This document shows, piece after piece, positions 11,367-27,380 of a stretch of 64,000 nt of DNA (the first letter of the stretch is position 1; every line of letters starts with the position of its first letter). This DNA comes from Methanobacteriota archaeon. GTDB lineage: Archaea; Halobacteriota; Methanosarcinia; Methanosarcinales; Methanosarcinaceae. The notes beneath the pieces were generated by a model. It had not been told where the DNA came from. It saw only the letters and a program-made list of their open reading frames with translations, and made no database searches. The stretch is from contig JAENZL010000005.1 of assembly GCA_016841265.1 (NCBI GenBank), positions 1 through 64,000 of the forward strand. The letters are read 5' to 3'. Both the position numbers and the translations under genes were made by a program.

Positions 11367-11454
11367 CCGATTAACTATATCCCCATAAGGCAATAAAGCT
11401 AATTCAGTACAAAATCAGAAAAATACCCACATATCCGGGTCTCCGGGATACACA

Positions 11455-11646: not shown

Positions 11647-11676
11647 AATTGAAAGCGTGAACTTCAGGACAGGGTA

Positions 11677-12099
11677 TTAAGAGGCAATTCCCTCGTGCAC
11701 GAACTTCCGGTAAACAAACTCTGAGATTGCAAACATTGGAAGTTTTGAATATTTAACAAGCATGTGTTTTTTACCCTCAGGGATATAGACCCCTATTTTT
11801 CCAGCCTCCTCAAGGGCATTATTGGAAAGGCTGTAAGTGTAAATTACACCGTCATCATGATATTCTATCTTTTCACTCACAAAACCGGTTATAATCATAT
11901 CCTCAAGAATGTCACTCAAATCCCAGGAATATGGTCCGTAATGATATTCGTCGAACTGAAAAAGCTTTGGAAGCTCCAGTTCTTCCTGTCCGAGAAAAAC
12001 CACTTTTTGAAGTTTGGTTATTCCTCTTATTTTTCCGAGGCAAGAGAGCAGTTCAATCAAAAACCACTTTCTTGAATCGAAGATATACTCCCCGTTCAT
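11677..12099 (-). CDS. DUF4065 (Panacea/SocA)- or YwgA-like protein
   Basis: This 140-residue protein has the pattern of the DUF4065/SocA and YwgA-like families: a helical N terminus, ITKLQKVVFLGQEE, then FDEYHYGPYSWDLSDILEDM, where YGPYS is the most characteristic motif. Related proteins serve as antitoxin or chaperone-like partners in some toxin-antitoxin systems, but no toxin candidate adjoins this gene. It lies alone between the reductase remnant and the hydrogenase-like operon. Function cannot be stated further. Confidence 0.6.
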   Translation of the reverse strand: MNGEYIFDSRKWFLIELLSCLGKIRGITKLQKVVFLGQEELELPKLFQFDEYHYGPYSWDLSDILEDMIITGFVSEKIEYHDDGVIYTYSLSNNALEEAGKIGVYIPEGKKHMLVKYSKLPMFAISEFVYRKFVHEGIAS

Positions 12100-12798
12100 A
12101 GTTATACGGATAAGGTATGTACGCAGGCTTTATATCATGTTCGATTTTGTTCTGCTGCATAAAAGAACATTATCGTGTCATTGCTGAATCATTAATGCAG
12201 CCGGGATAATTGCTGAATCATTAATGTAAAAGGGCTCGAAGCGTAAAAGCACGAATTAATGCGGGACATTAGGAGAGAAGAAAGTGAATCAGGTTCTCTG
12301 GCAAGTGCGCAACACGACAGGGATGCCCCATCTTTTCAAATATTTCTAGGAGAAAAGCCGGGAAAAAGGTCAAAATAAACTTTTTAAAGGAAAGCTCATG
12401 GAAGATAATTATAATTCCGTAGTGATCGGATTTTTTACCGCCTCTGGGCCATATTGGGGTAAAAGTCCGGAAATAAAGCCGATATAATCTGTTTATTCCA
12501 CCAGGTTTGGCGTTGTTCCGGAAGGAAATTCCAGGAAAACCTCCATCATGATCATTAGTTACCAATTTTTAGAAAAAAATGCTCAATGAAAAGCTATATA
12601 ATCCGAGGGGATATCAGACGCCCAAACTCCCGGAGAAAAAAAATGCCCGGGAAAGGATATTAACGGTGGAATGTGGATACGATTAAAAGATTCCTTTGTA
12701 TTATATGCAATAGAGAGAACGGTTTCAGGAAAACAGCTTCAGAAGGGTACGGAACTGAAAAACCTGCAAACCCTTCAAAGTCTGGAAAAATATTAGAC
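12100..12798. other. Intergenic region upstream of the hydrogenase-like operon
   Basis: I find no supported gene here. A direct repeat (ATTGCTGAATCATTAATG) occurs twice between about 12180 and 12226. Minus-strand frames in 12269-12565 lack start signals and similarity. Confidence 0.5.
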
Positions 12799-12905
12799 TA
12801 TGCATTTTTAATTACCGGACCCCAGTTTCGGAAATATGCATTTTTAATTACCGGACCAAAGCTCCGGGAATATGCCCATTTAATTGCCGGGCCCCGGCTT
12901 TGGGA
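12799..12905 (+). promoter_or_regulatory. Triplicated 36-base unit containing TATA-like boxes
   Basis: Three tandem units of 36 bases start at 12799, 12835 and 12871. Each contains an archaeal TATA-like element, TTTTTAATTA in the first two and CATTTAATTG in the third, followed by a CCGGACC or GCCGGGCC block. The array ends exactly at the predicted GTG start of the first operon gene. The third box is about 24 bases from that GTG, which would fit a leaderless transcript. The units could also be read as a 12-residue coding repeat, but no supported gene contains them. Confidence 0.6.
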
Positions 12906-14864
12906 GTGAATGGCTTGCTCGAAGCCCTGGTGTACGGCGCTTTTGCCGCACTGTTTTCCGGAACCGTCCTTCCTCTTCTGTACCGCAGTAAAAACGCAAG
13001 AAAGGCCTCCTTTGGCCTATCCTTTATTTCTTCAATCCTGCTCCTGGGTTTTGCAGGGACAATCCTCTACACAGGAAAAGGGGCTCAATTTCCAGCTATC
13101 AGCTTTCTTCCGGGGCTGGACTTCACCCTGGGAGTAGACCGGCTCTCGGCAGGGTTTGTCCTGCTGATTGCAGCAGTCGTGCCCGGGGTCTCAATCTATT
13201 CCCTGGAATACACGGAACACGCAAAAAGTGAAGCAGGAAAAGACCTTCAGGCAGCCCTGACAAACCTCTTCATCCTTGCCATGCTGCTGGTCGTGCTTGC
13301 AGGCAATATGGTGGTTTTCCTCATATTCTGGGAAATCATGTCTCTCTCCTCCCTCCTGCTAGTACTCCATGACTATTCCTCAGAGGAGAACAAAAAAGCA
13401 GGTTTCTTTTACTTCGTGATGACGAACCTGAGCACGGCTTTTCTTTTCCTGGGCTTCATCAGCCTTTTCAGGCTGACCGGCTCTGCCGAATTAGGGCAGC
13501 TCGGACCGGTGGAACCCGGAACCCTGACCCTGCCCTTCCTCTGCCTCTTCACAGGCTTCGGGATCAAGGCAGGACTTGTGCCCTTTCACAAGTGGCTCCC
13601 CTATGCCCACCCTGCAGCCCCTTCGGGGGTCTCGGCTCTCATGTCCGGGGTAATGTTAAAGGTTGCAGTCTACGGCTTCCTGCGCTTCCTGCTTGCAGTT
13701 TCCTCCCCGGAACTATGGTGGGGCATCCTGGTCCTGACCGCAGGCAGCCTTTCAGCCCTTTTCGGGGTAATCTACGCCCTTAAGGAAAGTGACATAAAAA
13801 GGCTGCTTGCCTACAGCAGCATCGAAAATATCGGGATAATCTTCATCGGGATAGGGCTTTACATCATATTCGAAGCCGAAGGGCTCCCTGCCCTTGCCCT
13901 GATGAGCCTTACAGGGGCCTGCTTCCATGCCTTCAACCACGCCCTATTCAAAAGCCTGCTATTCCTCTGTGCAGGTTCGGTGGTCCATGCCACAGGTACC
14001 AGGAACATCGAAGCTTTCGGCGGGCTGGTAAAAAGCATGCCCGTTACCTCAGCCTTTTTCCTGATAGGCTCGGTCTCGATTGCAGCCCTGCCCCCGGCAA
14101 ACGGCTTTGCAGGCGAACTCCTGCTCTACCAGGCCTTTTTCCAGGCATCGGCCCTCAACGACCCCCTGCTCACCGTGCTCCTGGTAATCGCCCTTTCGGG
14201 CTTTGCCCTGGCCGGAGCCCTGGCAGCAGCTCTTTTTGTAAAACTTTTCGGGATCACCTGCCTTGCCCTCCCGCGCTCCGAAGAGAGCCGGCTGGCTAAA
14301 GAAGTCCCTAAACTCATGCTAATCGGGGCAGCCGTGCCTGCAGCTTTCTGCATCCTGGCCGGGCTATTTTCAAAGCAGCTCCTTTCCCTTGCGGGCCTGG
14401 ACGTCGAATACCCGGACCTGCTCCTGCTCGGGCTGCTGCTGGGGCTCATATACGCAGCCCTCTTCCTGGCAGTCCGTGCAAAGGAAAAGAGTGAAAAGGA
14501 AAAGAGACCTGCCCGGACCAGCGAGACCTGGGGCTGTGGGGCTCCCACCCTGACACCTTCCATGGAGTACAGCTCAGCAGGGTTTTCCGAGCCCCTGGTC
14601 ATGATCTTCAAGAGCATATACAGGACCCGGATAGTGCACCGGCCGAAGTATTTCGACGGGCAGGAAAGCCTGTTAAAAAACGGAAATGTGGAAATCCGCC
14701 TGCTCCGCTTCTTTGAAGAATACCTCTACATCCCCCCTGCCCTCGCTATTGAGAACATTTCAAAGCGGGTCTCCAGACTGCAGAACGGCAAGCTTGACAG
14801 CTACCTCCTCTACGCCTTCCTTGCAGTCATTACCCTGATTCTTGTCACGGGGGTCCTCATATGA
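12906..14864 (+). CDS. HyfB/NuoL-like proton-translocating membrane subunit
   Basis: First gene of a six-gene operon related to hydrogenase-4 and complex I. This antiporter-type subunit of about 652 residues has 14 or more predicted helices. The residues thought to carry protons are kept: Glu143 in FWEIMSL, Lys221 in GFGIKAGLVPFHKWLP, and Lys252 in MSGVMLKVAVYG. The long C-terminal part (after ~residue 540, SETWGCGAPT...) is typical of HyfB. The GTG at 12906 immediately follows a triplicated promoter-like array; a TTG at 12900 is an alternative. It overlaps the next gene by four bases (ATGA). In group 4 hydrogenases this subunit couples electron transfer to H+ or Na+ movement; what drives it here is unclear because the redox subunits lack their cofactor ligands. 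Confidence 0.9.
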   Translation: MNGLLEALVYGAFAALFSGTVLPLLYRSKNARKASFGLSFISSILLLGFAGTILYTGKGAQFPAISFLPGLDFTLGVDRLSAGFVLLIAAVVPGVSIYSLEYTEHAKSEAGKDLQAALTNLFILAMLLVVLAGNMVVFLIFWEIMSLSSLLLVLHDYSSEENKKAGFFYFVMTNLSTAFLFLGFISLFRLTGSAELGQLGPVEPGTLTLPFLCLFTGFGIKAGLVPFHKWLPYAHPAAPSGVSALMSGVMLKVAVYGFLRFLLAVSSPELWWGILVLTAGSLSALFGVIYALKESDIKRLLAYSSIENIGIIFIGIGLYIIFEAEGLPALALMSLTGACFHAFNHALFKSLLFLCAGSVVHATGTRNIEAFGGLVKSMPVTSAFFLIGSVSIAALPPANGFAGELLLYQAFFQASALNDPLLTVLLVIALSGFALAGALAAALFVKLFGITCLALPRSEESRLAKEVPKLMLIGAAVPAAFCILAGLFSKQLLSLAGLDVEYPDLLLLGLLLGLIYAALFLAVRAKEKSEKEKRPARTSETWGCGAPTLTPSMEYSSAGFSEPLVMIFKSIYRTRIVHRPKYFDGQESLLKNGNVEIRLLRFFEEYLYIPPALAIENISKRVSRLQNGKLDSYLLYAFLAVITLILVTGVLI

Positions 14865-15802
14865 ATACATCATTCCTGCTCTTTGCCCTGTTAAACCCGG
14901 CTTTTGCCCTGCTGGCAGCCTCCCTCTACATGGCCCTGATCCGGAAGGTAAAGGCCCAGGCCCAGGGGCGGAAAGGCCCGGGGCTCTTCCAGGCATACTA
15001 TGACCTGAGAAAACTCATGCACAAAGAGGTAATTTATTCCCCGGTATCTTCCGGGATCATGCGGTTTACCCCATACCTCAACCTCGCGGCCCTGCTGGTC
15101 TGCTCCCTCTTCGTGCCCCTGGTCTTTGTACCGGAACCGGCGGGAGGGTTCGGGAACGTTATCGTCTTCCTCTACCTCCTTGCCCTGGAACGCTTCTTTA
15201 CAGCCCTTTGCGGGCTTGATGCGGGAAGCGCCTTCGGAGGCATGGGAAGTTCCCGGTCCATGAGCCTGGCAGCTGTTATCGAGCCTACCATGGTGGTGGC
15301 CTTTGCCGCACTTGCCTTTGTCCTGAAGAGCCTGAACCTGCACGAGATGTTCGCCCTGACCGCAGGCTCCCTCCTACCGGTAAGCCCGACCCTTGTCCTG
15401 GTCTCTATTTCCCTCTTCATCATCCTCATCGTGGAGACCGGGAGGCTTCCCGTGGACAACCCGGCAACCCACCTTGAACTCACCATGATCAACGAGGCCA
15501 TGGTCCTGGAACAGTCCGGGAAGAACCTGGCACTCCTGGAGCTTGCCCATGCCCTCAAACAGCTCCTCCTCATGGGGGTCCTGATAAACACGATCCTGCC
15601 AGTGGGACTAAGCACGGAAGCCAACGCCGGAAAAATTGCAGTATCAGCCCTGTCCTTCCTCCTGAAAGCCGGGGCTCTTGCCGTGGTGATCGGGCTCTTT
15701 GAATCTTCCCTTGCAAAAATGCGCCTCTTCAGGCTTCCTGCCTTTTACATGATGGCGTTTTTCTTTTCAGCCCTTACCATCCTTATCGAGGTGTTTGCAT
15801 GA
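14861..15802 (+). CDS. HyfC/NuoH-like membrane anchor subunit
   Basis: This 313-residue membrane protein has eight or so helices and the HyfC/HycD/NuoH signatures. The cytoplasmic loop LERFFTALCGLDAGSAFGG followed by MGSSRSMSLAA is well conserved. So is ETGRLPVDNPATHLELTM, the acidic loop that faces the peripheral arm in the family. It joins the peripheral large and small subunits to the antiporter subunits. Both loops being intact implies that docking of the peripheral arm is under selection even though the arm lacks redox ligands. It overlaps its neighbours by ATGA on both sides. Confidence 0.92.
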   Translation: MNTSFLLFALLNPAFALLAASLYMALIRKVKAQAQGRKGPGLFQAYYDLRKLMHKEVIYSPVSSGIMRFTPYLNLAALLVCSLFVPLVFVPEPAGGFGNVIVFLYLLALERFFTALCGLDAGSAFGGMGSSRSMSLAAVIEPTMVVAFAALAFVLKSLNLHEMFALTAGSLLPVSPTLVLVSISLFIILIVETGRLPVDNPATHLELTMINEAMVLEQSGKNLALLELAHALKQLLLMGVLINTILPVGLSTEANAGKIAVSALSFLLKAGALAVVIGLFESSLAKMRLFRLPAFYMMAFFFSALTILIEVFA

Positions 15803-16485
15803 TTGACCCGCTTTATCTCGAAGGCGTAATCAAGATCCTCTTCGTCTTCGTCCTGATCAGTGCAGCCCTGATCATCTCCACCCGCAGCCTTTCTTCGGTC
15901 CTTAATACCTACACTGTTCAGTCCTTCCTGCTTGCCGCAGTTTCCGTCCTCCTCTACCTGATAGACGGGAAGAGCGAACTCCTGCTGCTGGCAGGGCTGA
16001 CCCTGGCAAGCAAAGTGCTCCTGATCCCCCATTTCATTAACAGGATCGAGGAGAAAATCAAAATCAGGAGAGACCTGGACTTCACCTACCTGGAACCCAC
16101 TACCTCCCTCCTGCTGAGTATAGGCCTTATCCTGCTTTCCTATACCTTCCTTTCCCGGGTCTTCGGGGACCTTGCCCTCTCAAGGCTCTTCTTTTTCGGG
16201 GCGGTCATAGGGCTTTCCCTGACCCTCATGGGCATGCTTGTCATGTTCAGCCGGAAAAAGGTCATTACAAAAGCTCTCGGCTACCTCAGCATGGAAAACG
16301 GAGTCCTGATGTTAGGCATCTTTGTCACGGAACTCCCCTTCATCCTCGAAGTCCTGATTGTAATCGACCTGATAATCCTGGTCCTGCTGACCTCTATCCT
16401 GGCTGTGGGTCTGGACTCGAGCATCGAGGAGTACAGGGCAAAAATAAGGAAACTGCAGATCTGGAACGGAGGTGAAGCCCTGTGA
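15799..16485 (+). CDS. HyfE-like membrane subunit
   Basis: This 228-residue protein has about seven hydrophobic segments. Position, length and motifs (LNTYTVQSFLLAA near the N terminus, LGYLSMENGVLMLGIFVTEL in the second half) match HyfE, the fusion of MrpC/NuoK-like type with extra N-terminal helices in hydrogenase-4. The charged loop RIEEKIKIRRDLDF separates the two halves. It overlaps the upstream gene by four bases and the downstream gene by four (GTGA). Confidence 0.88.
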   Translation: MIDPLYLEGVIKILFVFVLISAALIISTRSLSSVLNTYTVQSFLLAAVSVLLYLIDGKSELLLLAGLTLASKVLLIPHFINRIEEKIKIRRDLDFTYLEPTTSLLLSIGLILLSYTFLSRVFGDLALSRLFFFGAVIGLSLTLMGMLVMFSRKKVITKALGYLSMENGVLMLGIFVTELPFILEVLIVIDLIILVLLTSILAVGLDSSIEEYRAKIRKLQIWNGGEAL

Positions 16486-17972
16486 TTCGATTCTACCTGC
16501 TGGCAATGGGGGCTTTCCTTGCCCTCGGCCTCTTTCCGAAGTCGCACAGGCTCATGAACGCCCTTGCCTCAGGCAATGCCCTGCTGCACCTCGCCCTGAC
16601 CTGCACAGCCCTGCTGACCCTTGACCTGCCTGTCCGGTACGGGCCGTCCCTTTACCTGGACCACCTGAACCTCTATGTAGAACTGATAACGGTCCTTGGT
16701 TTCTGCGCAGCAGCCCCCTATGCAAAAGGGTATACGGAAAGCCTGATGGAAGAGGGGGAACTTGACCCGAAGAACCTGAAACTCTTCTACCTGGCCTTCA
16801 ACCTCCTGCTTGTTACAGCCACAGCAGCGCTTTTCTCGGATAACCTGGCCCTCTTCTGGATCTTTGCCGAACTTACCACGGTCTGTGCAGCCGTGCTCGT
16901 GTCGATCCTCTCGGCACGGGAGAACATTGACGCCGGCATGAAATACGTCTTCATAGTTTCAGGGGCTATGCTCTTTGCCTTCCTGGGGCTGATTTTCCTC
17001 TTCACCCTCTCGGCCAGGGCTCTTGGGGAAGGGACTCTCTCCTGGACAGAACTTATGGAAAACGCTTCGAGCTTTTCCCCTGCCCTCCTCCTTGCAAGCT
17101 TTACCTTCGTCTTCATAGGCTTCGGGGCAAAGGCAGGAATAGCTCCTTTCCACACCTGGCTTCCCGACGCTTATGCACGAGCTCCTTCCGTAAGCGCAAT
17201 CCTCTCGGGGCTCATGCAGAACCTGGGGATCTACGGCATCCTCAGGACCTACGCCCTGCTCAGGGTCAGCGATTCAGCCCCCCAGGCTTCTTTCATCCTT
17301 ATCGCGGCAGGCCTGTTTTCAATTGCCCTTGCGGCGTTCAGCATGCTCCAGCAAAGGAACCTGAAGAGGCTGATCGCCTTTTCAAGTGTCGAGCACATGG
17401 GACTCCTGCTCATAGGAATAGGGATAGGCACTCCCCTTGCCCTTTTCTGGGTCCTCTTCTATATGCTGGTCCACGTCCTGGTAAAAGAAGCCCTGCTCTT
17501 TGCCGCAGGCATCCTGCACAGGCAGTACGGGAGCAACATGCGCGAGGACGTGAGGGACGTGTTCAAACTCCAGCCCCGCGCAGCCTGGACCCTGATCCTG
17601 GGGAGTGTCGCAATCGTCGGTATGCCGCCTTTCCCCCTCTTCCCGGCAAAATTTTTCATCTTGCTGGAAAGCGCGGAAGTTTCCCCCTACCTGACCCTGG
17701 CAATCCTGCTCCTGCTCATCCTGGCAGCCGCATCCTTCTCAAACTTCCTGTTAAAAGCCTTCTCAAAGGTTACCGAAGAAGGAGAAGAAAAAGGAGAAGG
17801 AAAAGAAACGGGATACCGGAAAAAAAGCTTTCATGACCCCTATGTTGTAAGAGCAGGGATGAGGATTCCCACAGTCTTCATGCTCGCCCTTGCCCTCCTC
17901 CTGGGCATCTGGTTCCCGGAACCACTCAGGGTGCTCCTTGAAGCGATAGTCCTTGAACTGGGATATGTGTAA
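16482..17972 (+). CDS. HyfF/MrpD-like proton-translocating membrane subunit
   Basis: This is the second antiporter-type subunit, 496 residues with a GTG start overlapping the previous stop. Glu130 (WIFAELTT) and Lys217 (GFGAKAGIAPFHTWLPDAY) are kept, as is a His-rich pairing region (VEHMG, LVHVLVKEA). At the TM8-equivalent position it has SGLMQNLGIYG rather than a Lys, as in HyfF and several MrpD-like proteins. A Lys/Glu-rich loop (about residues 426-447) near the C terminus is not typical. Together with the HyfB-like protein it gives two candidate ion paths per complex. Confidence 0.9.
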   Translation: MIRFYLLAMGAFLALGLFPKSHRLMNALASGNALLHLALTCTALLTLDLPVRYGPSLYLDHLNLYVELITVLGFCAAAPYAKGYTESLMEEGELDPKNLKLFYLAFNLLLVTATAALFSDNLALFWIFAELTTVCAAVLVSILSARENIDAGMKYVFIVSGAMLFAFLGLIFLFTLSARALGEGTLSWTELMENASSFSPALLLASFTFVFIGFGAKAGIAPFHTWLPDAYARAPSVSAILSGLMQNLGIYGILRTYALLRVSDSAPQASFILIAAGLFSIALAAFSMLQQRNLKRLIAFSSVEHMGLLLIGIGIGTPLALFWVLFYMLVHVLVKEALLFAAGILHRQYGSNMREDVRDVFKLQPRAAWTLILGSVAIVGMPPFPLFPAKFFILLESAEVSPYLTLAILLLLILAAASFSNFLLKAFSKVTEEGEEKGEGKETGYRKKSFHDPYVVRAGMRIPTVFMLALALLLGIWFPEPLRVLLEAIVLELGYV

Positions 17973-17985
17973 GGAGACGGTGCGT

Positions 17986-19818
17986 ATGGATATGAAAAAG
18001 AATAACGATATAATGGATTTGCTTTCAGAAATTTCGGAAATGACGGGAGAAGAGCCCGAAATACTCAACGCTCGCGCAGACGAGGCCTATGTCCGGCTCT
18101 CCGAAGCCGGGTTTGAAAGGGCAGCCTTAGCCCTTGCGAAACAGCAGTTCAGCCTCATCGGGCTATTCTGCGCGGAAGCCTTTGAGAAAGAGGACGGATT
18201 TACCCTCTTTTATGCCTTCAAACAGGCAGGGAGGGCACCTGTCCTCGTCCTGGTGCGGGAAGCCGGCAGGGAAGAAAAAGTGTCTTCGGTTGCGGAAAGC
18301 TTCCCTTCGGCCTCCTGGTTCGAACGGGAAGTCAGAGACGGCTTCGGGCTTGAGTTTACCGGGGCTTTTGACACAAGACGGCTCTTCCTGCACGAGTGCT
18401 ACCCCAAAGGTTTCCACCCCTTGCGAAAGGCCTTCAAAAACGGTCCTCTGCCCCTCCGGGAAACTGAAGCCGGAACAACTAAAGTAGGATCAAACGAAGC
18501 CAGAACAACTAAAGTAGGATCAAACGAAGCCGGAGCAGCTGAAGCCGGAGCAGCTGAAGCCGGAGCAGCTGAAGCCGGAACAACTAAAGTAGGATCAAAC
18601 GAAGTCGGGACAAATGAAGTCGGGAAGCCCGGAGAAGAATACCGGTTCAGGCAGCTGAAAGGAGAAGGCGTCTACCAGGTCCCGGTAGGGCCGGTACATG
18701 CCGGGATCATTGAGCCCGGACACTTCAGGTTCAGCGTTATAGGCGAGCCCATCTTCAGCCTGGAAATCCGGCTCTTTTACAAGCACAGGGGCATCGAAAA
18801 ACTGGCAGAGGGTAAAAGCCCTTCCGAATGCGTTGCTCTTGCCGAAGCCATAAGCGGGGACGAAAGCGCGGCAAATGCTGTGGGGTTCTGCACGGCCGTG
18901 GAAAGGGCCTGTGGGATTCCGGTGCCAGAAAGGGCAGAATGCCTGCGGGCCGTACTGCTGGAACTCGAAAGGGTCTACTCTCTCCTGGGCGACCTTGCGG
19001 GCATGGCTGTGGACGTTGGTTTTTCCCTGGTGGCAAGCCCCTTCTTAATTCTCAGGGAAGAAATGTTCAGGCAAAACGAGAAACTCACAGGTTCAAGGTT
19101 CCTGCGGGGGATGATGATGCCCGGAGGGCTGAAAAAAGACATCCCGTATTCGGCTTTGAAAGAGCTGGCTCCTTTCTTCGCAAAGTTTTCCCGGACTTTC
19201 GAATCGGCTTTCGAACGGGCAATGTCCTCATCCTCCCTGATCGACAGGTTCGCAACTACAGGCGTGGTAAAAAAAGGACTTGTCGTACCCCTCAACCTCA
19301 CAGGCCCTCTGGCAAAAGCCTCGGGCTGCCCTGCCGATACCAGGCTTAACAGGCCTTATGGGGCCTACGGGTACTTTGCTCCGGGACCTTCCGTAAGGAA
19401 AGGAGGGGATGTGCTCTCCCGTTATGAGGTAAAAGCTGACGAGATAAGGGAATCTCTGAAGCTCATCGACCGCCTCTTAGAAGAAATGCCTGAAGGCCCC
19501 GTGTTTGCAGGAAATACCCTCGCGGAAGGCGAAGAAGCCGGGCCCGGCAGTTTAAGCACTTCCGGTACTTCCGGCGATTCCGGTACTTCCAGCACTTCCG
19601 GAATTTCCGGTTATGCCCTGACCCTGGTAGAAGCCCCGAGAGGGCAGAACCTGCACTGGGTCTACCTGAAAAACGGGCTTGTCGACCGCTACAAGGTAAG
19701 GACCGCCTCCTTTTGTAACTGGCAGGCCATCGAACATGCGGTCCTCGGGAACATCATTCCTGACTTTCCCGTTATCAACAAGAGCCTGAACATGTCATAT
19801 GCAGGGACCGACCTTTGA
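17986..19818 (+). CDS. HyfG/HycE-like large subunit without NiFe ligands
   Basis: This is a fusion of a NuoC-like domain (residues ~1-150, with SASWFEREVRDGFGLEF and HPLRKAF) and a hydrogenase-large/NuoD-like domain (from ~residue 215). In active group 4 hydrogenases two Cys pairs bind NiFe, in the motifs RxCGxC and DPCxxC. Here the first reads AISGDES (Ser290, Glu293, and Asn297 for the usual His). The second reads NKSLNMS (Ser600, Met603). No Ni site is possible. Two low-complexity linkers are inserted: a repeat rich in TKVGSNEAG and AAEAG between the domains, and a Ser/Thr/Gly repeat at ~residues 525-542. The ATG at 17986 has GGAG nine bases upstream. The loss of the first Cys pair fits Ehr-type (energy-converting-hydrogenase-related) proteins. 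Its partner has also lost its Fe-S ligands. Confidence 0.9.
   Translation: MDMKKNNDIMDLLSEISEMTGEEPEILNARADEAYVRLSEAGFERAALALAKQQFSLIGLFCAEAFEKEDGFTLFYAFKQAGRAPVLVLVREAGREEKVSSVAESFPSASWFEREVRDGFGLEFTGAFDTRRLFLHECYPKGFHPLRKAFKNGPLPLRETEAGTTKVGSNEARTTKVGSNEAGAAEAGAAEAGAAEAGTTKVGSNEVGTNEVGKPGEEYRFRQLKGEGVYQVPVGPVHAGIIEPGHFRFSVIGEPIFSLEIRLFYKHRGIEKLAEGKSPSECVALAEAISGDESAANAVGFCTAVERACGIPVPERAECLRAVLLELERVYSLLGDLAGMAVDVGFSLVASPFLILREEMFRQNEKLTGSRFLRGMMMPGGLKKDIPYSALKELAPFFAKFSRTFESAFERAMSSSSLIDRFATTGVVKKGLVVPLNLTGPLAKASGCPADTRLNRPYGAYGYFAPGPSVRKGGDVLSRYEVKADEIRESLKLIDRLLEEMPEGPVFAGNTLAEGEEAGPGSLSTSGTSGDSGTSSTSGISGYALTLVEAPRGQNLHWVYLKNGLVDRYKVRTASFCNWQAIEHAVLGNIIPDFPVINKSLNMSYAGTDL
18466..18630 (+). 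repeat. In-frame minisatellite in the large-subunit gene
   Basis: Alternating units encoding TTKVGSNEAG and GAAEA, several copies nearly identical at DNA level. The repeat forms a flexible linker between the NuoC-like and NuoD-like domains. Confidence 0.85.
19549..19611 (+). repeat. Short in-frame Ser/Thr/Gly-coding repeat
   Basis: Repeats of about nine bases around TCCGGTACT and TTCCGG encode alternating S, G, T. They lie in a probable surface loop of the large subunit. Confidence 0.75.
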
Positions 19819-19904
19819 GCAAAAGTGCCTTTGAAAGCAGAGATGCCCGTGAACAAAGAGATTAACACGGAAAAAAAAATCAAGAAATGCAGTGAGGTCT
19901 GAGA

Positions 19905-20417
19905 ATGATAAAACCGCTTTCCCTTTTCCTCCGTCCGAAGGTGACGGAGACTTTTGAATTCCGGGATGAGGAACTCGAAACCCTGGGGTCCGAAATAAAA
20001 AAAGAAATGCCTAAAGTCTTCGGACGCAGCCTGGCAATCCGCGAATTGGACTCGGGCAGTGATAATTCCACGGAAATAGAGATCTCAAACCTGGGAACCC
20101 CGTACTACGACGTAGAAAGGTTCGGAATCTCCTTTGTAGCATCCCCACGGCACGCCGACGTCCTGCTGGTAACCGGGGCAGTCACCCTGAACATGGCCGA
20201 AGCCGTGAAAAAGACCTATGAAGCCATGCCTTCCCCTAAATTCGTTGTCGCAGTCGGAGACGATGCCTGTAACGGGGGGATCTATAAAGGTTCCTACGCA
20301 GTGCTGGGAGGAGTCGACAAGATCCTGCCCGTAGACATGAGAATTCCCGGAAACCCCCCTTCTCCAAAAGAGATTTTGAAAGGATTGCTTGCACTCCTCA
20401 AAAAGGCTTCCGAGTAA
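19905..20417 (+). CDS. HyfI/NuoB-like small subunit lacking all Fe-S ligands
   Basis: This 170-residue protein follows the NuoB/HyfI fold closely: YYDVERFGISF, ASPRHADVLLVTGAVT, MPSPKFVVAVGD, GVDKILPVDMRIPG. In the family four Cys hold the [4Fe-4S] cluster next to NiFe or quinone (GSCNGCEIE, GxCA, PGCPP). Here the aligned residues are Asp53 and Thr56 (GSDNSTEIE), Asp120 (VGDDACNGG) and Asn150 (PGNPPSP). All four are replaced while the surroundings are conserved. Cys122 is kept but is not a family ligand. The gene starts 86 bases after the large subunit and has GAGGT upstream. The pattern argues against random decay, because the frame is intact and the substitutions fall on ligands. It is the main reason to call the complex redox-silent. 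Confidence 0.9.
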   Translation: MIKPLSLFLRPKVTETFEFRDEELETLGSEIKKEMPKVFGRSLAIRELDSGSDNSTEIEISNLGTPYYDVERFGISFVASPRHADVLLVTGAVTLNMAEAVKKTYEAMPSPKFVVAVGDDACNGGIYKGSYAVLGGVDKILPVDMRIPGNPPSPKEILKGLLALLKKASE

Positions 20418-20615
20418 AATGATTCAGAAGATTTCCGGATAAAAAGACTCAGGATAAAGATGCGGAGCCATTTTCTGCCCCTGGCAAAGGGGGCTTCTCC
20501 TTTTACCTGCAGGGCCCTAATGCCCTTCCCTACATCGAACCTTCTGACCCAACGACATACTTCCAGTGTATTCAATTCCAAAAATCGGCTTTTCCATAAA
20601 TTGTACATTGATAAA

Positions 20616-20752
20616 TGAAAAGTGCATTCGAATAACTAAAAAGTACATTCCGATGACTGAAAAGTACATTCGAATAACTGAAAAGTATATTCCGATGACT
20701 GAGAAGTGTATTTGAATGACTGAAAAGTACATTCGAATGACTGAAAAGTATA
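20616..20752. repeat. Tandem array of 20-21-base units
   Basis: About six and a half copies of a unit close to TGAAAAGTACATTCGAATGA, alternating between AAT and GAT versions. It lies downstream of the hydrogenase-like operon. I see no coding role. Confidence 0.85.
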
Positions 20753-20834
20753 GCGGGCTGACCGGGGAGAAGAGTTCAAAAAAATGTGAGGATCAATTGC
20801 GGAAGCTCTCGGATGTGAAGTTACAAAATGGGAG

Positions 20835-21014
20835 ATGAAATATGAAAACGGCTGGAAACCGGATTTCGAGTATTTAAGCGGGGAAGAATTCTGCGTAGAT
20901 TTCGTGGAGAAGCAGGGAGTCGTGCTGCTTCCGGGGACTGACAATGATTTTGGAGAGCGAAACGTCCGGCTGGGGTTCGACAGGAAAAACATGGCAGAAG
21001 CGCTGGAAAAATAA
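20835..21014 (+). pseudogene. C-terminal fragment of a class I/II aminotransferase
   Basis: The 59 codons end in a pattern typical of the end of PLP aminotransferases: FCVDFVEKQGVVLLPGTD, then ERNVRLGFDRKNMAEALE. The catalytic Lys and the rest of the fold (about 330 residues) are absent, and the upstream sequence is a tandem repeat. This is a truncated remnant rather than a working gene. Confidence 0.7.
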
Positions 21015-21094
21015 GGAAAGTACATAAAGAAGGATTTATAGATAAGGACATATATTTATCGAGTGTCCCGGATCAGGGCATACGGGGGCTTTCC

Positions 21095-21265
21095 ATGTCA
21101 GGATATTCCCTTTCGATTCAGGAAATAGAAACCCTTAGCTACTACGATTTCAGGAGCTACCTTGAGGTGCCCTGCTTCCACGTAGAGAACCTGGTTTCCA
21201 CGGAAAAACTGACAGAACTCTGCCAGTTTGACAGGGATACTTCCGTGGTTATAATGCAAGTGTAA
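21095..21265 (+). pseudogene. N-terminal fragment of a SAM-dependent methyltransferase
   Basis: The 56-residue frame (MSGYSLSIQEIETLSYYDF ... STEKLTELCQFDRDTSVVIM) resembles the N terminus of class I SAM methyltransferases up to motif I. It stops where GCGTG would be expected. The SAM site and all later motifs are missing. Its position next to the aminotransferase fragment marks a small graveyard of decayed genes. Confidence 0.6.
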
Positions 21266-21558
21266 ATACTTTACATTCGGAACTATAATTGCTGACAAAA
21301 CCGGCTAAATTAAAAAAGGAAATAAAAGAAAAGAAAAAGGAACAGGAAATTGTCCGGGACTGTGAAAAAATAAATGTTTTTTGGAAAAGGATATAAGCAA
21401 TCAATTGGAAAACCTAGAGCAATAGTTCCTCAAGAAGTTACCGGTGGGGTTTTCAAGAAATGAAACCGGGACTTCAGATTAGGCAAAACGGGTTTTGGGA
21501 AAAATGAAGGGAAATTACCTCCGGCGTATTCATGAGGTTCCCGGGGAGGTAGACTTGC

Positions 21559-22341
21559 ATGAAAGTTTCACTTATTGATCTGGCATTTCTTTCAGAAAAA
21601 AGAACAAATGTTTTGCTCCTTCTGGAAGAGGGGCCAAAAACCAGCGACGAGATAAAAACAGCCCTGAACGTTAGCTCGACGTCGATTATGCCCCAGATAA
21701 AGAAATTAAAAGAAGGTCACATGATCACCCAGGAAAGCGACAGGTACCAGCTCTCGGAAATGGGAGAGATAGTTGTCGAAAAGATGGAACCCCTTTTAAA
21801 TACAGTGAGGGTTTTCGAAGAAAATTACGATTACTGGGTAAACCACGACCTGAGCGCAATTCCTGAGAACCTTCTAAACAGGATCGAAGAACTGGGAAAC
21901 TATTTCCTGCTCGAACCCGACCTTAACAGGCTCTTTGAAGTGCCTGAAGACTTTAAGATAAACCTCCTGGAATCCAGACGTGTCATGACATTTCTTTCTT
22001 ATTTCCACCCCCTCTATCTTAACCTGTATTCCGAACTGGCACGAAAAGGAGCTGAAATGTGCCTCATCCTGACCGAACCTGTCTTTGAAAGAATGAAAAA
22101 AGACTACACAGAAGACCTCCAGGAACTTCTGGATTTCAAAAACGCGAAAATTTACATTTGCGGTGAGAAAATAACCCTGAAAAACGTTGTAACAGACCGC
22201 TTCTGTTCACTGGTACTCTTTGACAGAAAGGGGAAATTCGACCACCAGCGCCTGATGAGCTTTGACGAAAGTGCGCTGGAATGGTGTGAAGAACTCTTCA
22301 ATCATTACAGAGATAGGTCTATACCCCTTGAAAAACTCTGA
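21559..22341 (+). CDS. Msr/FilR1-type transcriptional regulator
   Basis: This is a 260-residue member of the methanogen regulator family that contains the Msr proteins. It has an N-terminal ArsR-like winged helix (residues ~1-75: DLAFLSEKRTNVLLLLEEG and SSTSIMPQIKKLKEGHMI). A FilR1-type middle/C-terminal domain follows (DYWVNHDLSAIPENLLNRI, LLEPDLNRLFEVP, and the terminal ESALEWCEELFNHY). Msr proteins control methanol or methylsulfide methyltransferase genes in M. acetivorans. This one is not next to any methyltransferase gene; its nearest intact neighbour is a receiver protein. The ATG has GGGGAGGT upstream. Target unknown. Confidence 0.85.
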   Translation: MKVSLIDLAFLSEKRTNVLLLLEEGPKTSDEIKTALNVSSTSIMPQIKKLKEGHMITQESDRYQLSEMGEIVVEKMEPLLNTVRVFEENYDYWVNHDLSAIPENLLNRIEELGNYFLLEPDLNRLFEVPEDFKINLLESRRVMTFLSYFHPLYLNLYSELARKGAEMCLILTEPVFERMKKDYTEDLQELLDFKNAKIYICGEKITLKNVVTDRFCSLVLFDRKGKFDHQRLMSFDESALEWCEELFNHYRDRSIPLEKL

Positions 22342-22555
22342 AGATATATAAAAAATAGAAATCCCCTTGATTTCCGATTTGATACCAGTCAGAGCTCCGG
22401 ATTTGTTGTAACCGGAGTATACAGGTGTTTAATTTCGATTTGATATCAACCGGAGTTCACAGGTTTTTGATTCGAATGGATATTACAACATGTTTAACCC
22501 GGAAAAGGGACCATAAATACCTGGCATTTCACAAGAGATGCCAGGAATACTGTCC

Positions 22556-22921
22556 TCAATCATTGAGATATTTGTCAATCAGGGATCTAAACCTGTTTAT
22601 GTCAATGGGCTTTGAGATGTAATCAACGCATCCCTTTTCTATGAAGTGTTCCTCACTTCCTTTCATTGCATGAGCAGTTACCGCGATCACCGGGATGTCG
22701 GCAGTGGCAGGGTTCTGCTTTATCCTTTCAAGAACCTCGAGCCCGTCCATTTTCGGAAGCTGCATATCCAGGAGAATGATGTCGAATATTTCCTCATCGA
22801 GGCACTCAAGGGCCCTTATTCCGTCCTCCGCTCCGGTTACGCTGTGCCCGTAGAATTCCAGCAGATCAAGTATCAATTCCATATTCATTGGGTTGTCTTC
22901 AACAATCAGAATTTTTTTCAT
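22556..22921 (-). CDS. Stand-alone CheY-like response regulator
   Basis: This 121-residue receiver domain has no output domain. The acidic pocket (ILIVEDNP), the phospho-acceptor Asp (DIILLDMQLPKMDG), the Thr of the switch (IAVTAHAM) and Lys (YISKPID) are all present, so it should be phosphorylatable. The PMNMELI and AHAMKGSE segments resemble receivers linked to hybrid histidine kinases. No kinase gene is near. It is convergent with the Msr-like gene at 21559. Confidence 0.9.
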   Translation of the reverse strand: MKKILIVEDNPMNMELILDLLEFYGHSVTGAEDGIRALECLDEEIFDIILLDMQLPKMDGLEVLERIKQNPATADIPVIAVTAHAMKGSEEHFIEKGCVDYISKPIDINRFRSLIDKYLND

Positions 22922-22941
22922 CTTTATGCCTCTTAAGCATG

Positions 22942-23060
22942 GTAGGACTTACGCAGTTGAATTGAAAAACACGAGCGGAAAAGACATAACTGAACAAACC
23001 CGAATAATGTTGACGAGTCCACATGTGCCTGATATTACATTTCAAGTGCGTAAGTCCTAC
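22942..23060. mobile_element. 119-base MITE with 20-base terminal inverted repeats
   Basis: The ends are GTAGGACTTACGCAGTTGAA and the inverted copy ending TGCGTAAGTCCTAC; 19 of 20 positions match. Size and ends fit a non-autonomous miniature element mobilised by a DDE transposase. No transposase with these ends is in the window. I could not identify a clear target-site duplication. Confidence 0.8.
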
Positions 23061-23339
23061 ATAGTTAGTTGTTTTATAAATAAGAGCGTAGAACCCCTGG
23101 TACTGCGATTCCAAAATATCGCTATAAATATAGGACTCGAAATGAACCTGCATGTCAACGTAAAAAACCATAGATAGACACGGCTTTGGTTGATCTGTGT
23201 CAATCTGTGTTAATCCATAGTTTATTCACCAACTTTGGAATCGATCTACCAGGTCTTTAGCCTGGGGGATATAAGCGTAAACTTAACCCTGATTCCGTAT
23301 ATACATTTCTAAAGTTTCCCTGCTAACTCATAGTTCACA

Positions 23340-23735
23340 TTTTTGCATTTACCGCAATGTAAATACGCCGTTAAAGCATATGGTTGTATGATGTTAAAAG
23401 CCTATAAATTCAGGTTGTATCCTACAACTGAACAAAAAACAATGATAGCAAAACATATAGGTAGCTGTCGATTTGTTTTTAATTGGGCTTTAGAACTAAA
23501 AATTAAATCATATCAAGAAGAAGGAAAATCATTTTCCAGAACAGAACATGATAGGGACATAAACGCAGCTATAAACATTAAAAAGTTTGCTCTGCAAGAG
23601 CAAAATTTGATAGTAATCTAATCTTTCCTGCGGAACGTGGGGTTAAGCTTGTGGATTCGTCTGGGGTACCAGGGAAAATGAAGCAAGAAGTCCGTTAAAT
23701 CTTTAGATTTAGCGGGCAGTTCACCCTGTTAATTA
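23340..23735 (+). mobile_element. Deleted IS605/IS1341-like element including right end
   Basis: It spans the tnpB remnant plus flanks. The right end contains a palindrome near 23692-23716 (CCGTTAAATC / GATTTAGCGG) of the kind found at IS605-type ends and in the scaffold part of TnpB omega RNAs. The left boundary is an estimate from the start of the non-coding leader. The right end abuts the truncated receiver gene. Confidence 0.6.
23388..23621 (+). pseudogene. Internally deleted TnpB (IS200/IS605-IS1341 type)
   Basis: The frame joins a TnpB N terminus (MLKAYKFRLYPTTEQKTMI, then GSCRFVFNWALELK) directly to its C terminus (HDRDINAAINIKKFALQEQ), where DRDxNAAxNI is the last part of the RuvC-like nuclease site. 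About 300 residues between them are missing. The protein cannot be an active RNA-guided nuclease. What remains has both gene ends and the downstream element end, as in a deletion derivative that could be moved in trans. Confidence 0.85.
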
Positions 23736-23905
23736 ACTCTTTTCTTCCGAAAGTGCCTTTCTTCATTATAGAGAGCAAATGGTCCTGCATTTCATTGTTC
23801 AATTCTTCAATATTCTTTTCATCAAACTCCCCTGCCGTATAGACAATCAGGGGGACATCCCTGGTCTCCTGGGCACCCCTCATGATGGAAATTACGTCAA
23901 GATGG
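23695..23905 (-). pseudogene. C-terminal fragment of a receiver domain
   Basis: The recognisable part (VISIMRGAQETRDVPLIVYTAGEFDEKNIEEL then SIMKKGTFGRKELINRV, given here in pieces) matches the last third of receiver domains seen in Methanosarcina hybrid kinases. The phospho-acceptor region is missing. The last few codons come from the adjoining TnpB element end, so the element insertion probably cut this gene. The reading frame continues upstream to 24069, but that part has no receiver similarity. Confidence 0.55.
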
Positions 23906-24062
23906 GTACATGGCCGAATATTTTGTACAATGGAAGTTGAATACTTTATGCAGAGAAACTTTTTCACAAAAGAAAATTGAGAGCATTTATACAGAGGAAA
24001 TTGACCACCCATGTGAAAGAAAAGGTGGGAATGAGTAGAAAATAATTTAGAACTAGAGGAAC

Positions 24063-26915
24063 TCACCACCGGAACAAGCGAGAAACCCAGCCCACGTTCT
24101 TTCTGAGAGCGTACTTCCTGAGTTCGTCAACTGCAAGAAGGAAGATGGCAAAGGGAAGAGCTAGCAGCAGGTATTTGAAGTCAATTGGAGAGGTATTGAA
24201 AATCAGGTTGGCAAGGGGGCTCCAGATAATAAAGGAAAGGATGAGAAGCTCGCTTACAATACCTGCCAGAACATACCGGTTTTTGAAAATACCTTTGGTG
24301 AAGACCGACTGTAGCCGGGTCCTGGAGGTGAAGACGTTTGCAATCTGGCAGATAATCACCGCCGAAAAAAAAGCCGTAATCGACTGCATGTAGAGGGGAT
24401 TACTGTTTGCAAGCTGTTCCCCGAAACTCCAGCCCCCGCCGAAAAGGACGGCAAAGTAGCAGAAAAAACCGGCAGCTGCCTCTATGGGCCCTTTTATTCC
24501 GTAAGAAGTAAAAAGCACCTGGGATGTAAGCAGTTTTTCGTCCCTGGACCTGGGAGGCCGCCTCATAATATCTCCCTCTCCCTTTTCCACACCCAGGGCA
24601 AGGGCAGGCAGGATATCGGTCCCCAGGTCAATTGCCAGGATGAGCTGCACGTTCATAGGGAGAGGCAGGGCGAAGAGGACAAAGGCGATAAAAGGCAGGA
24701 TTTCCGGGATATTGCTGGTAAGGATGTAAGCAATAAACTTTTTGATGTTATCAAAGACGGTCCTGCCCTCTTCCACAGCCTTCACTATGGTGGCAAAGTT
24801 GTCGTCCAGAAGCACCATGTCCGCAGCTTCCCTGGCAACATCGGTGCCGCTCCCCATGGCAACCCCCATATCCGCATTCTTGATTGCGGGGGCATCGTTG
24901 ACCCCGTCTCCGGTCATGGTGACGATTTCCCCCTCTGCCTGAAAGAGTTGCACGATTTTCAGTTTCTGTACGGGGGAGGTCCGGGCAAAGACTATACTCT
25001 TCTTTTTCAAACGCTTCGCAAGTTCTTCTCTGGAAAGAGCTTTCAGCTCGTCACCCGTGATTATTTCCAGAGCTTCGGAATCCGAAAGCCCCACATTCCG
25101 GGCAATGGACTCTGCAGTTACGGGGTGGTCCCCTGTAATCATGACGACCTTGATCCCCGCAGCATGGCACTTTGCAATAGCCCCTTTTGCTTCGGGGCGC
25201 GGAGGGTCCACAATCCCGATGAAACCCAGGAAAACGAAACCTTCAGTATACTCTTCCAGCTTTTCCGCTTCCCTGTAAGCAAGAGCTATCACCCGCTCTC
25301 CCCTCTCCGCCATCTTCAGGTGCCGGTCCAGCAGTTCTTCTTTCTCCCTTCTGCTAAGTTCCCTCACCCCTTCGGCCTCAATTAGGGAATCGCACATCTC
25401 AACCACAATTTCCGGAGCCCCTTTGAGGTAAGATTCAAGCCCGCCTTCGGGAGTACGGCAGAGGACTTCCATCCGCTTGGTAAGAGAATCAAACGGGAAT
25501 TCCTCCAGCCGGGGATAATTAACGTTGAGTTCCTTCAGGTCCGTAAAGCCGTTTGCAAAGACCAGGAGGGCTCCTTCGGTGGGGTCTCCCGTATATCCCG
25601 GAGCCCTTTCCGAAAACCTCGCATTGTTGCAGAGCCCGGCGACCCGCAGGAAAACAGGAGGAATCTTTTCAGGGTCCCAGCCAGGACCCTGCAGCCCTTC
25701 CCCGGAAATCACCTCTTCCCCCACAGGCATTTCTCCGGTGTTCATACCTGCTTCCTGCCCTGCTGCTTCCTGCCCTGCCGCGTCCTCTGCGGAACCTTCA
25801 GGGTCTTCAGGGTCTACATCTTCATACCCGATGATGAGGGAGTGAACAGCCATTTTGTTCTGGGTCAGGGTCCCTGTCTTATCCGTACAGATAACCGTGG
25901 TCGAACCCAGGGTTTCCACGGACTCGAGCTGTTTTATCAGGGCTTTTCTGTCGGCCATCCGGCGGGAGGCCAGGCTAAGGGCAAGGGTAACTGTTGGCAG
26001 GAGCCCTTCAGGTACATTGGCGACGATGATCCCGATGGAAAAAATAAGGCTCGCAAGGAAGATATCCTGGAGGAAAAAGGCAAGCAGAAAAAAAGTTACC
26101 CCGAGGAAAATCGCTATTGAAGAAATTACCTTTATGAAATGGTTGAGTTCCTTCCGGATAGGAGTGTCCACGGTTGAGGTCTGTTCGGTCAGGGTAGCCA
26201 GGTTCCCGATCTGGGTATGTGCTCCTGTCCCGAACACGATAGCTTTTCCGTTTCCGCTCTGCACCAGGGTTCCGGAAAAAACCATGTTCCTGCACTCCAG
26301 CATTTCCGGATGAGTGCAATTAAGAGAACGCAACTGCGGTTCGGCTTCCCCGGTCAGAGCGGAATTGTCTACTTTCAGGGAATTGGCTTCTATCAAACGC
26401 CCGTCTGCCGGGACCTTGTCCCCTTCTTCAAGAAGGATAACGTCCCCGACAACCAGTTCCAAAGCCAGGACGTCAAGGACCACCCCTTCCCTTAAAACCC
26501 TTGCATGGGGCGGGATAAGCTGCCGGAAGCTTTCCATGGTCTTTTCGGCCTGGTACTCCTGGATAAAAGTAAAGGTCCCGTTCAGGACGACGACACCCCC
26601 GAGAGCTACCCCTATATATAGATTACCCTGCCCGGGGTCCAGGTACTCGGCTAAGAAGGAGAGAAGGGCTCCTATGGCCAGCAGAATGGAAAAGAAATTT
26701 CGGAATTGCCGGAAGTATTTCCGGGCTATGCTTTCTTTTTCCGTATCTTCCAGGACATTGGGACCGCAGTCCTGCAAGCGGCGGGCAGCTTCCCGTCCTA
26801 TGAGCCCGTTTTCAGCTGTCCCGAACCTCTCCAGGAATTCCGGGAGGGGAATCCTGTGTTCATCACCCCGGGGAGAGCACAAAGCTTCCCTGTCTACAGC
26901 CGCTGTCGACTCCAT
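24063..26915 (-). CDS. P2-type cation-transporting ATPase (Na+/K+-ATPase-like)
   Basis: This protein of about 950 residues has all P-type ATPase landmarks: actuator loop LTGEAEP, phosphorylation site DKTGTLT (Asp345), KGAPE in the nucleotide domain, TGDHPVTA, and the hinge TGDGVNDAPAIK. Ion-site helices read NVPEGLLPTVT (M4), SNIPEILPF (M5) and DLGTDILPAL (M6). That resembles P2C Na+/K+-ATPases more than SERCA-type Ca2+ pumps (PEGLP, NIGEV, NLVTD). An acidic Ala/Gly/Gln-rich insert of about 45 residues follows the phosphorylation site and looks like repeat expansion. I chose an ATG at 26915, which has GGGGG just upstream and a TATA-like box about 30 bases further. Transport of Na+, K+ or H+ is inference. 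Confidence 0.88.
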   Translation of the reverse strand: MESTAAVDREALCSPRGDEHRIPLPEFLERFGTAENGLIGREAARRLQDCGPNVLEDTEKESIARKYFRQFRNFFSILLAIGALLSFLAEYLDPGQGNLYIGVALGGVVVLNGTFTFIQEYQAEKTMESFRQLIPPHARVLREGVVLDVLALELVVGDVILLEEGDKVPADGRLIEANSLKVDNSALTGEAEPQLRSLNCTHPEMLECRNMVFSGTLVQSGNGKAIVFGTGAHTQIGNLATLTEQTSTVDTPIRKELNHFIKVISSIAIFLGVTFFLLAFFLQDIFLASLIFSIGIIVANVPEGLLPTVTLALSLASRRMADRKALIKQLESVETLGSTTVICTDKTGTLTQNKMAVHSLIIGYEDVDPEDPEGSAEDAAGQEAAGQEAGMNTGEMPVGEEVISGEGLQGPGWDPEKIPPVFLRVAGLCNNARFSERAPGYTGDPTEGALLVFANGFTDLKELNVNYPRLEEFPFDSLTKRMEVLCRTPEGGLESYLKGAPEIVVEMCDSLIEAEGVRELSRREKEELLDRHLKMAERGERVIALAYREAEKLEEYTEGFVFLGFIGIVDPPRPEAKGAIAKCHAAGIKVVMITGDHPVTAESIARNVGLSDSEALEIITGDELKALSREELAKRLKKKSIVFARTSPVQKLKIVQLFQAEGEIVTMTGDGVNDAPAIKNADMGVAMGSGTDVAREAADMVLLDDNFATIVKAVEEGRTVFDNIKKFIAYILTSNIPEILPFIAFVLFALPLPMNVQLILAIDLGTDILPALALGVEKGEGDIMRRPPRSRDEKLLTSQVLFTSYGIKGPIEAAAGFFCYFAVLFGGGWSFGEQLANSNPLYMQSITAFFSAVIICQIANVFTSRTRLQSVFTKGIFKNRYVLAGIVSELLILSFIIWSPLANLIFNTSPIDFKYLLLALPFAIFLLAVDELRKYALRKNVGWVSRLFRW

Positions 26916-27380
26916 CATACCCCCTATATTCAATGCCGCATAGACATATAAGCTTGACATTTCGAAGAGAAGAGGGTAGGAGCTTGAAATGCCCTGGTAG
27001 GCGGGTCAAAAATTTTCACCGCATTTATCAGAAACAGGGCAAAAAAAAATTCCCGTCAATTATGTTTTATAATTTGCTAACGAAAAAATAATCCCTACTC
27101 AATGCAAAAATAGAGGGTTTGAGAATTTATTTTACGCTCAGGTTCTCAGCCCTGTGCAAGCGAACATGAAAAGGAGTTGCATAAAGCTTTGTCCTGCTCC
27201 TTTTCCCCTACATATATTTTATGGTTTTTAATAATGTTTGAGGACTCAGGAGTCTAAAAGCCCTGAGTATGAAACATTTTGGATTGAAAAGGTCTATATA
27301 ATATCGTACAGTAGAAAATAAAATTGTAAATATAATAAAATAAATGTAATAAGAAATAAATAAAAAAGGTATGACCGATT
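26916..27380 (+). promoter_or_regulatory. Upstream region and promoter of mtaA
   Basis: An AT-rich region without a gene. A strong TATA element (TCTATATAATA) lies at about 27293-27303, predicting a start near 27325 and a leader of about 55 bases that is very A/T-rich and poor in structure. GGT about ten bases before the ATG is the only weak ribosome-binding signal. Confidence 0.6.

Follow-up and report, generated by a model that had tools for sequence, protein, structure and literature searches.

Proximal-cluster and NiFe ligands are replaced in a six-gene Ehr-type operon of a Methanosarcinaceae archaeon

Described relatives and layout of the operon

Ehr (Ech/energy-converting hydrogenase-related) complexes without NiFe are described, with function unknown, in the Ehr passages of PMC6349859, PMC7304191, PMC10284858, PMC12342949, and PMC4378227; these, together with the corresponding passages of PMC7894505, name Geobacter, Nitrospira, Sulfobacillus, CPR, and Margulisbacteria as hosts. 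As portrayed there, Ehr complexes resemble the one predicted here in subunit set, in having no NiFe ligands in the large subunit, and in their antiporter-like membrane subunits; in contrast to them, the clade of our sequence has neither the cluster ligands of the small subunit nor a ferredoxin gene. Most of the Ehr complexes that we compared keep the proximal [4Fe-4S] ligands in the small subunit, whereas ours is without them. Within the open-access literature, a scope outside which Marreiros et al. 2013, reportedly the founding Ehr paper, and Coppi's Geobacter hydrogenase survey fall, we found no mention of small-subunit cluster-ligand loss in Ehr. The Ehr passages of the six papers above do not mention it, nor do the passages of PMC12361115, PMC11291895, PMC9474812, PMC12329440, and PMC11459464 that we consulted. 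What is added here to the already known NiFe-less Ehr is a variant that, judged from its sequence, also lacks the small-subunit cluster ligands.

Group 4 [NiFe] hydrogenases such as Mbh (6cfw) and formate hydrogenlyase (7z0s) have the same soluble-subunit folds and a homologous membrane arm, but the eight metal-ligating cysteines of their large and small subunits (G and I below) are all replaced in our operon. Complex I and the F420H2 dehydrogenase (Fpo) are homologous to it through NuoB, NuoCD, NuoH, and NuoL-N; unlike them, it has neither the cluster N2 ligands nor a NuoI-type ferredoxin subunit. The same genome also has a separate Fpo-type NuoB with its cysteines (L002). Mrp antiporters are redox-free, and to our knowledge they have no NuoB/NuoD/NuoH-type module, while the complex predicted here keeps one. 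Subunits of these Na+/H+ antiporters are homologous to subunits B and F (7qru, 6z16, 7d3u).

The window, which is the whole stretch of 64,000 nucleotides that was analysed, contains a run of six genes at 12900-20417 in the order B-C-E-F-G-I, with the gene of subunit I last:

12900..14864, + strand: subunit B, NuoL/HyfB-like antiporter-like membrane subunit, 654 aa
14861..15802, + strand: subunit C, NuoH/HyfC-like membrane subunit, 313 aa
15799..16485, + strand: subunit E, HyfE-like membrane subunit, 228 aa
16482..17972, + strand: subunit F, NuoM/N/HyfF-like antiporter-like membrane subunit, 496 aa
17953..19818, + strand: subunit G, NuoC-NuoD (hydrogenase large subunit) fusion without NiFe cysteines, 621 aa
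19905..20417, + strand: subunit I, NuoB/hydrogenase small subunit without [4Fe-4S] ligands, 170 aa, ATG start

Subunit B matched Pfam Proton_antipo_M (2.6e-62) and the NCBIfam hydrogenase membrane subunit PRK08667 (2.4e-296), and subunit F matched Proton_antipo_M (5.1e-50) and PRK08676 (7.9e-218). Subunit C belongs to Pfam NADHdh (4.2e-35), its best PDB match being HycD of formate hydrogenlyase (7z0s_D, 1.7e-35), and subunit E matched the NCBIfam hydrogenase 4 membrane subunit at 3.1e-17, which is under the curated cut-off of that model. The two halves of G matched Pfam Complex1_49kDa (3.1e-41) and Complex1_30kDa (4.5e-18). For subunit I, profile searches returned Pfam Oxidored_q6 (1.4e-27) and NCBIfam NuoB (4.4e-39), with MbhJ (6cfw_J, 4.4e-32) as the best PDB match. 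Caution is advisable here: such operons in methanogens and Dehalococcoidia should not be read as formate hydrogenlyase, hydrogenase-4, or Nuo. We infer that the six products assemble into one complex.

Several membrane-arm residues are at least 97% conserved in clade A, the group of cluster-less sequences that includes the window: E145, K223, K254, and E406 of B (n=27), E130, K217, K295, and K335 of F (n=31), and E192, R195, D199, H204, E206, E212, E217, and E227 of C (n=29). All were aligned to solved subunits; in this family generally, residues of this kind serve in the ion channels (B and F) and in the coupling loop (C). A passage of the formate hydrogenlyase structure paper gives the ND1-type loop a role in coupling (PMC9474812).

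Ligand positions of the two soluble subunits

The first-pass annotation had matched GSDNSTEIE, VGDDACNGG, and PGNPP of subunit I to the ligand motifs of its family. Residue alignment to MbhJ bore this out: GSDNSTEIE lies opposite GSCNGCDIE, GDDA opposite GACP, and PGNPP opposite PGCPP, with agreement at the flanking residues. Thus, all four proximal-cluster cysteines are replaced (D53, T56, D120, and N150). The only cysteine left, Cys122 in VGDDAC, is outside the ligand positions. The codons concerned are as follows.

20061..20072, + strand: codons D53-N-S-T56, former cluster ligands 1 and 2; D53 in 66/66 sequences, position 56 T/A/P/V
20262..20264, + strand: codon D120, former cluster ligand 3; D in 62 and E in 4 of 66
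20352..20354, + strand: codon N150, former cluster ligand 4; N in 65 and D in 1 of 66

These 66 sequences comprise the window and 65 clade A loci with a large-subunit partner in view; L018, L020, L026, L033, L034, L035, and L110, among others, stand outside the set. All four ligand positions are Cys in every one of 21 cluster-bearing relatives, which were picked by hand and include L237, a locus with NiFe-type cysteines. Conservation of the four positions among orthologues, which the annotation had put forward as a check, was found for 53, 120, and 150 but failed for 56, where T occurs 39 times, A 23 times, P three times, and V once.

We then compared the residue sets of the 66 cluster-less and 21 cluster-bearing sequences over residues 41-170 (130 columns). 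They were disjoint at the four ligand columns and nowhere else, so the suggested specificity of the substitutions for ligand positions held. The same four columns emerged when the alignment was re-cut to 44 versus 43 rows over columns 41-165. Control splits within the cluster-bearing rows produced no disjoint column for the gamma/alpha or the archaeal group, two for the delta group, and six for the planctomycete group, none of them a ligand column; 11 group 4 hydrogenases set against the 43 rows gave 10 disjoint columns, again without a ligand column. In 230 of the 234 replaced ligand cells of the cluster-less rows, a count of sequences and not of events, the residue is at least two base changes from a Cys codon, with S, G, Y, F, R, and W taken from the codon table as the one-step set. 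Wherever the positions are readable (L034 and L035 are partly masked), the replacement pattern is common to Methanosarcina, Methanoregula, other Methanomicrobiales, Bathyarchaeota, Altiarchaeales, Woesearchaeota, and Dehalococcoidia.

The gene of subunit I is under strong purifying selection. Its dN/dS was 0.092, 0.027, 0.054, and 0.060 against L008, L005, L010, and L013, and the other five genes gave 0.066-0.160 against the same loci. These are simple Nei-Gojobori counts at unsaturated dS only; in the comparisons with L010 and L013, dS had reached saturation for F and G. Against L014, dS was saturated for G and I, and B, C, E, and F gave 0.13-0.24 at dS 1.7-2.4. The singled-out ligand columns and the strong purifying selection together reject random decay, as the annotation had argued; random residues combined with broad decay in the orthologues were looked for and did not occur. 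As a single chain, subunit I was modelled by AlphaFold2 with a mean pLDDT of 95.0, and the model superposed on MbhJ with Z 20.0 and rmsd 1.4 over 135 aligned residues.

Three findings go beyond that annotation: loss of the NiFe ligands in the partner subunit, absence of a ferredoxin subunit, and recurrence of the ligand loss in other lineages. In subunit G, AISGDES stands where RxCGxC is expected and NMSYAGTDL where DPCxxC is expected, and all four NiFe cysteines are gone:

18850..18864, + strand: first former NiFe motif, G residues 300-304 (I-S-G-D-E; Cys replaced by S301 and E304)
19795..19806, + strand: second former NiFe motif, G residues 615-618 (S-Y-A-G; Cys replaced by S615 and G618)

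The motifs SGD and NKS...SY of G are common to NiFe-less relatives. Clade A is fixed for E304 and N308 of G (65 each, leaving out rows counted singly), positions at which cluster-bearing Ehr have S/T/N and H/Y. Clade A exceptions at the first NiFe position are L240 with Cys and L239 with Gly. The single-chain AlphaFold2 model of G (mean pLDDT 85.2, low in two linkers) superposed on HycE with Z 48.5 and rmsd 2.1 over 523 aligned residues. The two linkers are of low complexity (KVGSNEA and STSGTSG types), arise from in-frame repeats at 18456-18623 and 19558-19611, and are disordered in the model. HypD is needed to build the NiFe cofactor. HypD is present in the window genome, where a different contig also carries three canonical frames for hydrogenase large subunits, so the loss of NiFe ligands in the window is not for want of maturation genes.

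None of the six window subunits contained CxxC or CxC, and CxxCxxCxxxC was missing from all ORFs of at least 40 codons overlapping 10000-24000. A ferredoxin-motif ORF was likewise absent from the operon in all 21 clade A loci with the six genes in view. Among the 43 clade A loci listed, L106 alone has a 64-residue, one-motif ORF inside G, which we took as chance. The cluster-bearing archaeal relatives L123, L125, L126, L133, L135, and L241 have a two-motif ORF of 117 or 127 residues between G and I, and in L242 the ferredoxin-motif part is fused to I. Loss of the ferredoxin alone says little, however, because proteobacterial Ehr keep the cluster ligands and also showed no ferredoxin ORF in their operons.

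Number of losses and distribution

A tree was computed with the ligand columns masked. Sixteen duplicate loci were dropped first, and the remaining 197 rows were then reduced to 116 by removing further duplicates, close relatives, partial rows, and rows with at most 250 aligned large-subunit residues. Clade A (44 rows) formed one group with an SH-aLRT of 100 and grouped with Ehr; two sets of group 4 hydrogenases fell outside the Ehr part. Clade B (10 rows from CPR, Scalindua, and others) and a Chloroflexota group (six rows) were placed apart from clade A. Rows with NiFe-type cysteines also lie inside the Ehr part, namely L237, L200, and L224-L229.

The fewest changes in cluster-ligand state numbered four on the full tree and three on a 49-row set. 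On the latter, a single loss for clades A and B plus the Chloroflexota group was rejected (p-AU 0.006) and a single loss for A and B was not (p-AU 0.40); in these tests the group had been defined only once the first tree was known, and the long-branch L219 was left out. Together, the AU tests and the change counts support at least two losses of the cluster ligands, with three or four likely.

The lineages share much in their replacements. Position 53 is D in all 44 clade A rows, T in eight, S in one, and D in one of clade B, and D in the six Chloroflexota. At position 120, D and E number 40 and 4 in clade A, D and G number 8 and 2 in clade B, and E and D number 4 and 2 in the Chloroflexota; at position 150, the counts are N43 and D1, D10, and D5 and S1, respectively. 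The pocket is not uniform, since clade B has T/S/D at position 53 and keeps Cys56 in 7 of its 10 rows.

In the six Chloroflexota genomes (L224-L229), G keeps CGAC or CAAC plus CYxC, and an N-terminal ferredoxin domain with a first motif that is broken in some is fused to I; the proximal-cluster positions read D, C/A/T, D/E, and D/S. HypD was found in only one of these six genomes, which are of unstated completeness, so their four cysteines may hold something else. In the phylum of L037, L237 and L200 combine NiFe-type cysteines (CGVC/CYSC) with an unbroken set of cluster ligands; a search of the L237 genome found no HypD. CPR genome G606 encodes a small subunit of another Ehr branch (L219:8659-9411) with a D/A/D/N replacement, thus D, D, and N at positions 53, 120, and 150; its N-terminal ferredoxin domain is half degraded. 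On the tree, L219 has a long branch and is placed with cluster-bearing rows of planctomycete type, and its ligand loss is probably independent.

The genome resembles Methanosarcina: the full-length small subunits closest to that of the window are 82-95% identical and come from records named Methanosarcina or Methanosarcinaceae. Matches occurred in 4 of 4 genomes of the genus (E 0.001), in 15 of 80 of the family, and in 41 of 392 of the phylum (both E 1e-35). The 41 comprise 31 cluster-less clade A sequences, five cluster-bearing, NiFe-less Ehr (L123-L127), and five with NiFe cysteines (L128-L132). In a second family of this phylum, sequences matching over nearly their full length are still 69-75% identical. 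Of 286 genomes in the CPR phylum, nine matched, all cluster-less and including the genome of the query itself. Chloroflexota yielded matches in 30 of 251 genomes; 20 of the 31 places were examined, of which 12 are clade A (query included), six are ligand-less with NiFe-type cysteines, and two are cluster-bearing. In the phyla of G422 (53 of 247 genomes matching; 25 of 55 places examined) and G420 (24 of 199; 15 of 25), the query alone was cluster-less. Every query was a cluster-less protein, so these counts lean toward cluster-less relatives. The variant with no recognisable redox cofactor is common to methanogens, other archaea, and Dehalococcoidia.

Solo genes were also encountered. An Altiarchaeales locus (L020:9989-10519) has a small-subunit gene of the clade A type that stands alone: the flanks, about 10 kb each, contained no recognisable gene for another subunit. 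Truncated solo copies lie on contig C40 of the window genome (L138:4248-4400) and in the congener G002 (L136:4475-4755 and L137:6485-6637); they span residues 120-170, or 78-170 with a frameshift, and no other subunit was seen within the stretches searched.

Candidate functions and flanking DNA

The reading we prefer, with middling confidence, is that the operon encodes a six-subunit (B-C-E-F-G-I) Ehr-type complex that has lost its redox sites and most likely acts as a redox-free ion transporter. As far as motifs can tell, the recognisable NiFe site, the proximal [4Fe-4S] cluster site, and the ferredoxin subunit have all been lost. Purifying selection has preserved the fold, the residues that join the soluble and membrane parts, and those of the ion channels. 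Because every recognisable metal-cofactor site is replaced, ion movement without electrons is probable. The complex would most likely be an Mrp-like antiporter that still carries a complex-I-like soluble module. Conserved residues with acidic, amide, and hydroxyl side chains would line its former NiFe/FeS cavity (D53, D120, and N150 of I; S301, D303, E304, N308, and S615 of G); that they face one cavity we infer from the old ligand positions and their sequence neighbours. The probable occupant of this pocket is a cation, a small ligand, or a network of water and protons, whose binding or protonation would gate or drive the membrane arm. The replacements are mostly D, E, or N, and similar ones recur in lineages separated in the tree, which argues for the ion-transporter reading; the six Chloroflexota that keep NiFe-type cysteines and have lost the cluster ligands count against it, since a simple loss of the whole chain would not predict them. 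A full four-ligand metal site is unlikely, given that position 56 is not conserved. Tentatively, the cavity may have been rebuilt as a cation- or proton-binding cage of carboxylates and amides, independently in several lineages including the Chloroflexota, with coupling that proceeds without electron transfer.

The D/N replacements could also be structural only. Asp and Asn would then form hydrogen bonds with the backbone around the lost cluster and so maintain the fold of the small subunit, and the soluble module would be a passive antiporter cap with an empty pocket. The fold predicted with very high confidence in the absence of a cluster fits this explanation, as does the freedom of position 56 to vary, but D53, D/E120, and N150 scarcely vary among the archaeal and bacterial lineages, and this, together with the clade-specific fixation of E304 and N308 in G and the retained coupling-loop residues, weighs against it and leaves it somewhat doubtful.

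It is unlikely that the complex is still a redox enzyme in which two carriers, soluble or membrane-bound, such as F420H2 or NAD(P)H on one side and methanophenazine or a quinone on the other, pass hydride directly within the cavity with no Fe-S cluster. The cavity does come from a family with quinone-binding members, and the structures on which G superposes include the quinone-binding subunit of complex I. Against this, Pfam and NCBIfam searches identified none of the operon's products as a nucleotide-, flavin-, or F420-binding subunit, and the clade A operon maps examined, which were used because neighbourhood clustering of stop-to-stop ORFs was too noisy, showed no conserved gene in addition to the six; moreover, the intact archaeal sister type keeps both ferredoxin and cluster.

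Less probable still is a membrane arm driven by non-redox chemistry, for instance CO2 hydration or bicarbonate uptake, that the rebuilt pocket would catalyse or sense. Among 28 related bacterial loci of groups B and C, three have a SulP-type transporter gene next to the operon, but two of the three are near relatives, and the gene is absent from the clade A operon maps examined. With only 3/28 B/C loci behind it, the SulP/bicarbonate link was dropped as the main reading. The SulP-family genes beside Ehr operons are at L037:7612-9561, L058:9855-11762, and L052:10798-12546. Finally, a decaying relic of a hydrogenase-like operon, to which the patchy presence in the family (15/80 genomes) and the truncated solo copies in two genomes might point, is very improbable and was rejected on the dN/dS values, well under 1 in all six genes, with the 69-75% identity at nearly full length in another family and the singled-out ligand columns also against it.

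How soluble-arm chemistry is coupled to distant ion movement has long been debated for complex I. A natural relative with coupling and channel residues and no recognisable redox cofactor offers a ready test case. If the redox-free transporter that we favour does move ions, electron transfer would not be intrinsic to the coupling machinery.

The flanking DNA contains further repeats. Directly before gene B, at 12799-12899, a 36-base unit with an A/T-rich, TATA-like core is repeated 2.8 times and could be a multiplied promoter element. Just past the operon, at 20616-20750, lies a 21/42-base tandem repeat (6.4 copies of 21). Farther downstream, the minus strand at 24063-26960 carries a large ORF whose translation reads as P-type-ATPase-like.
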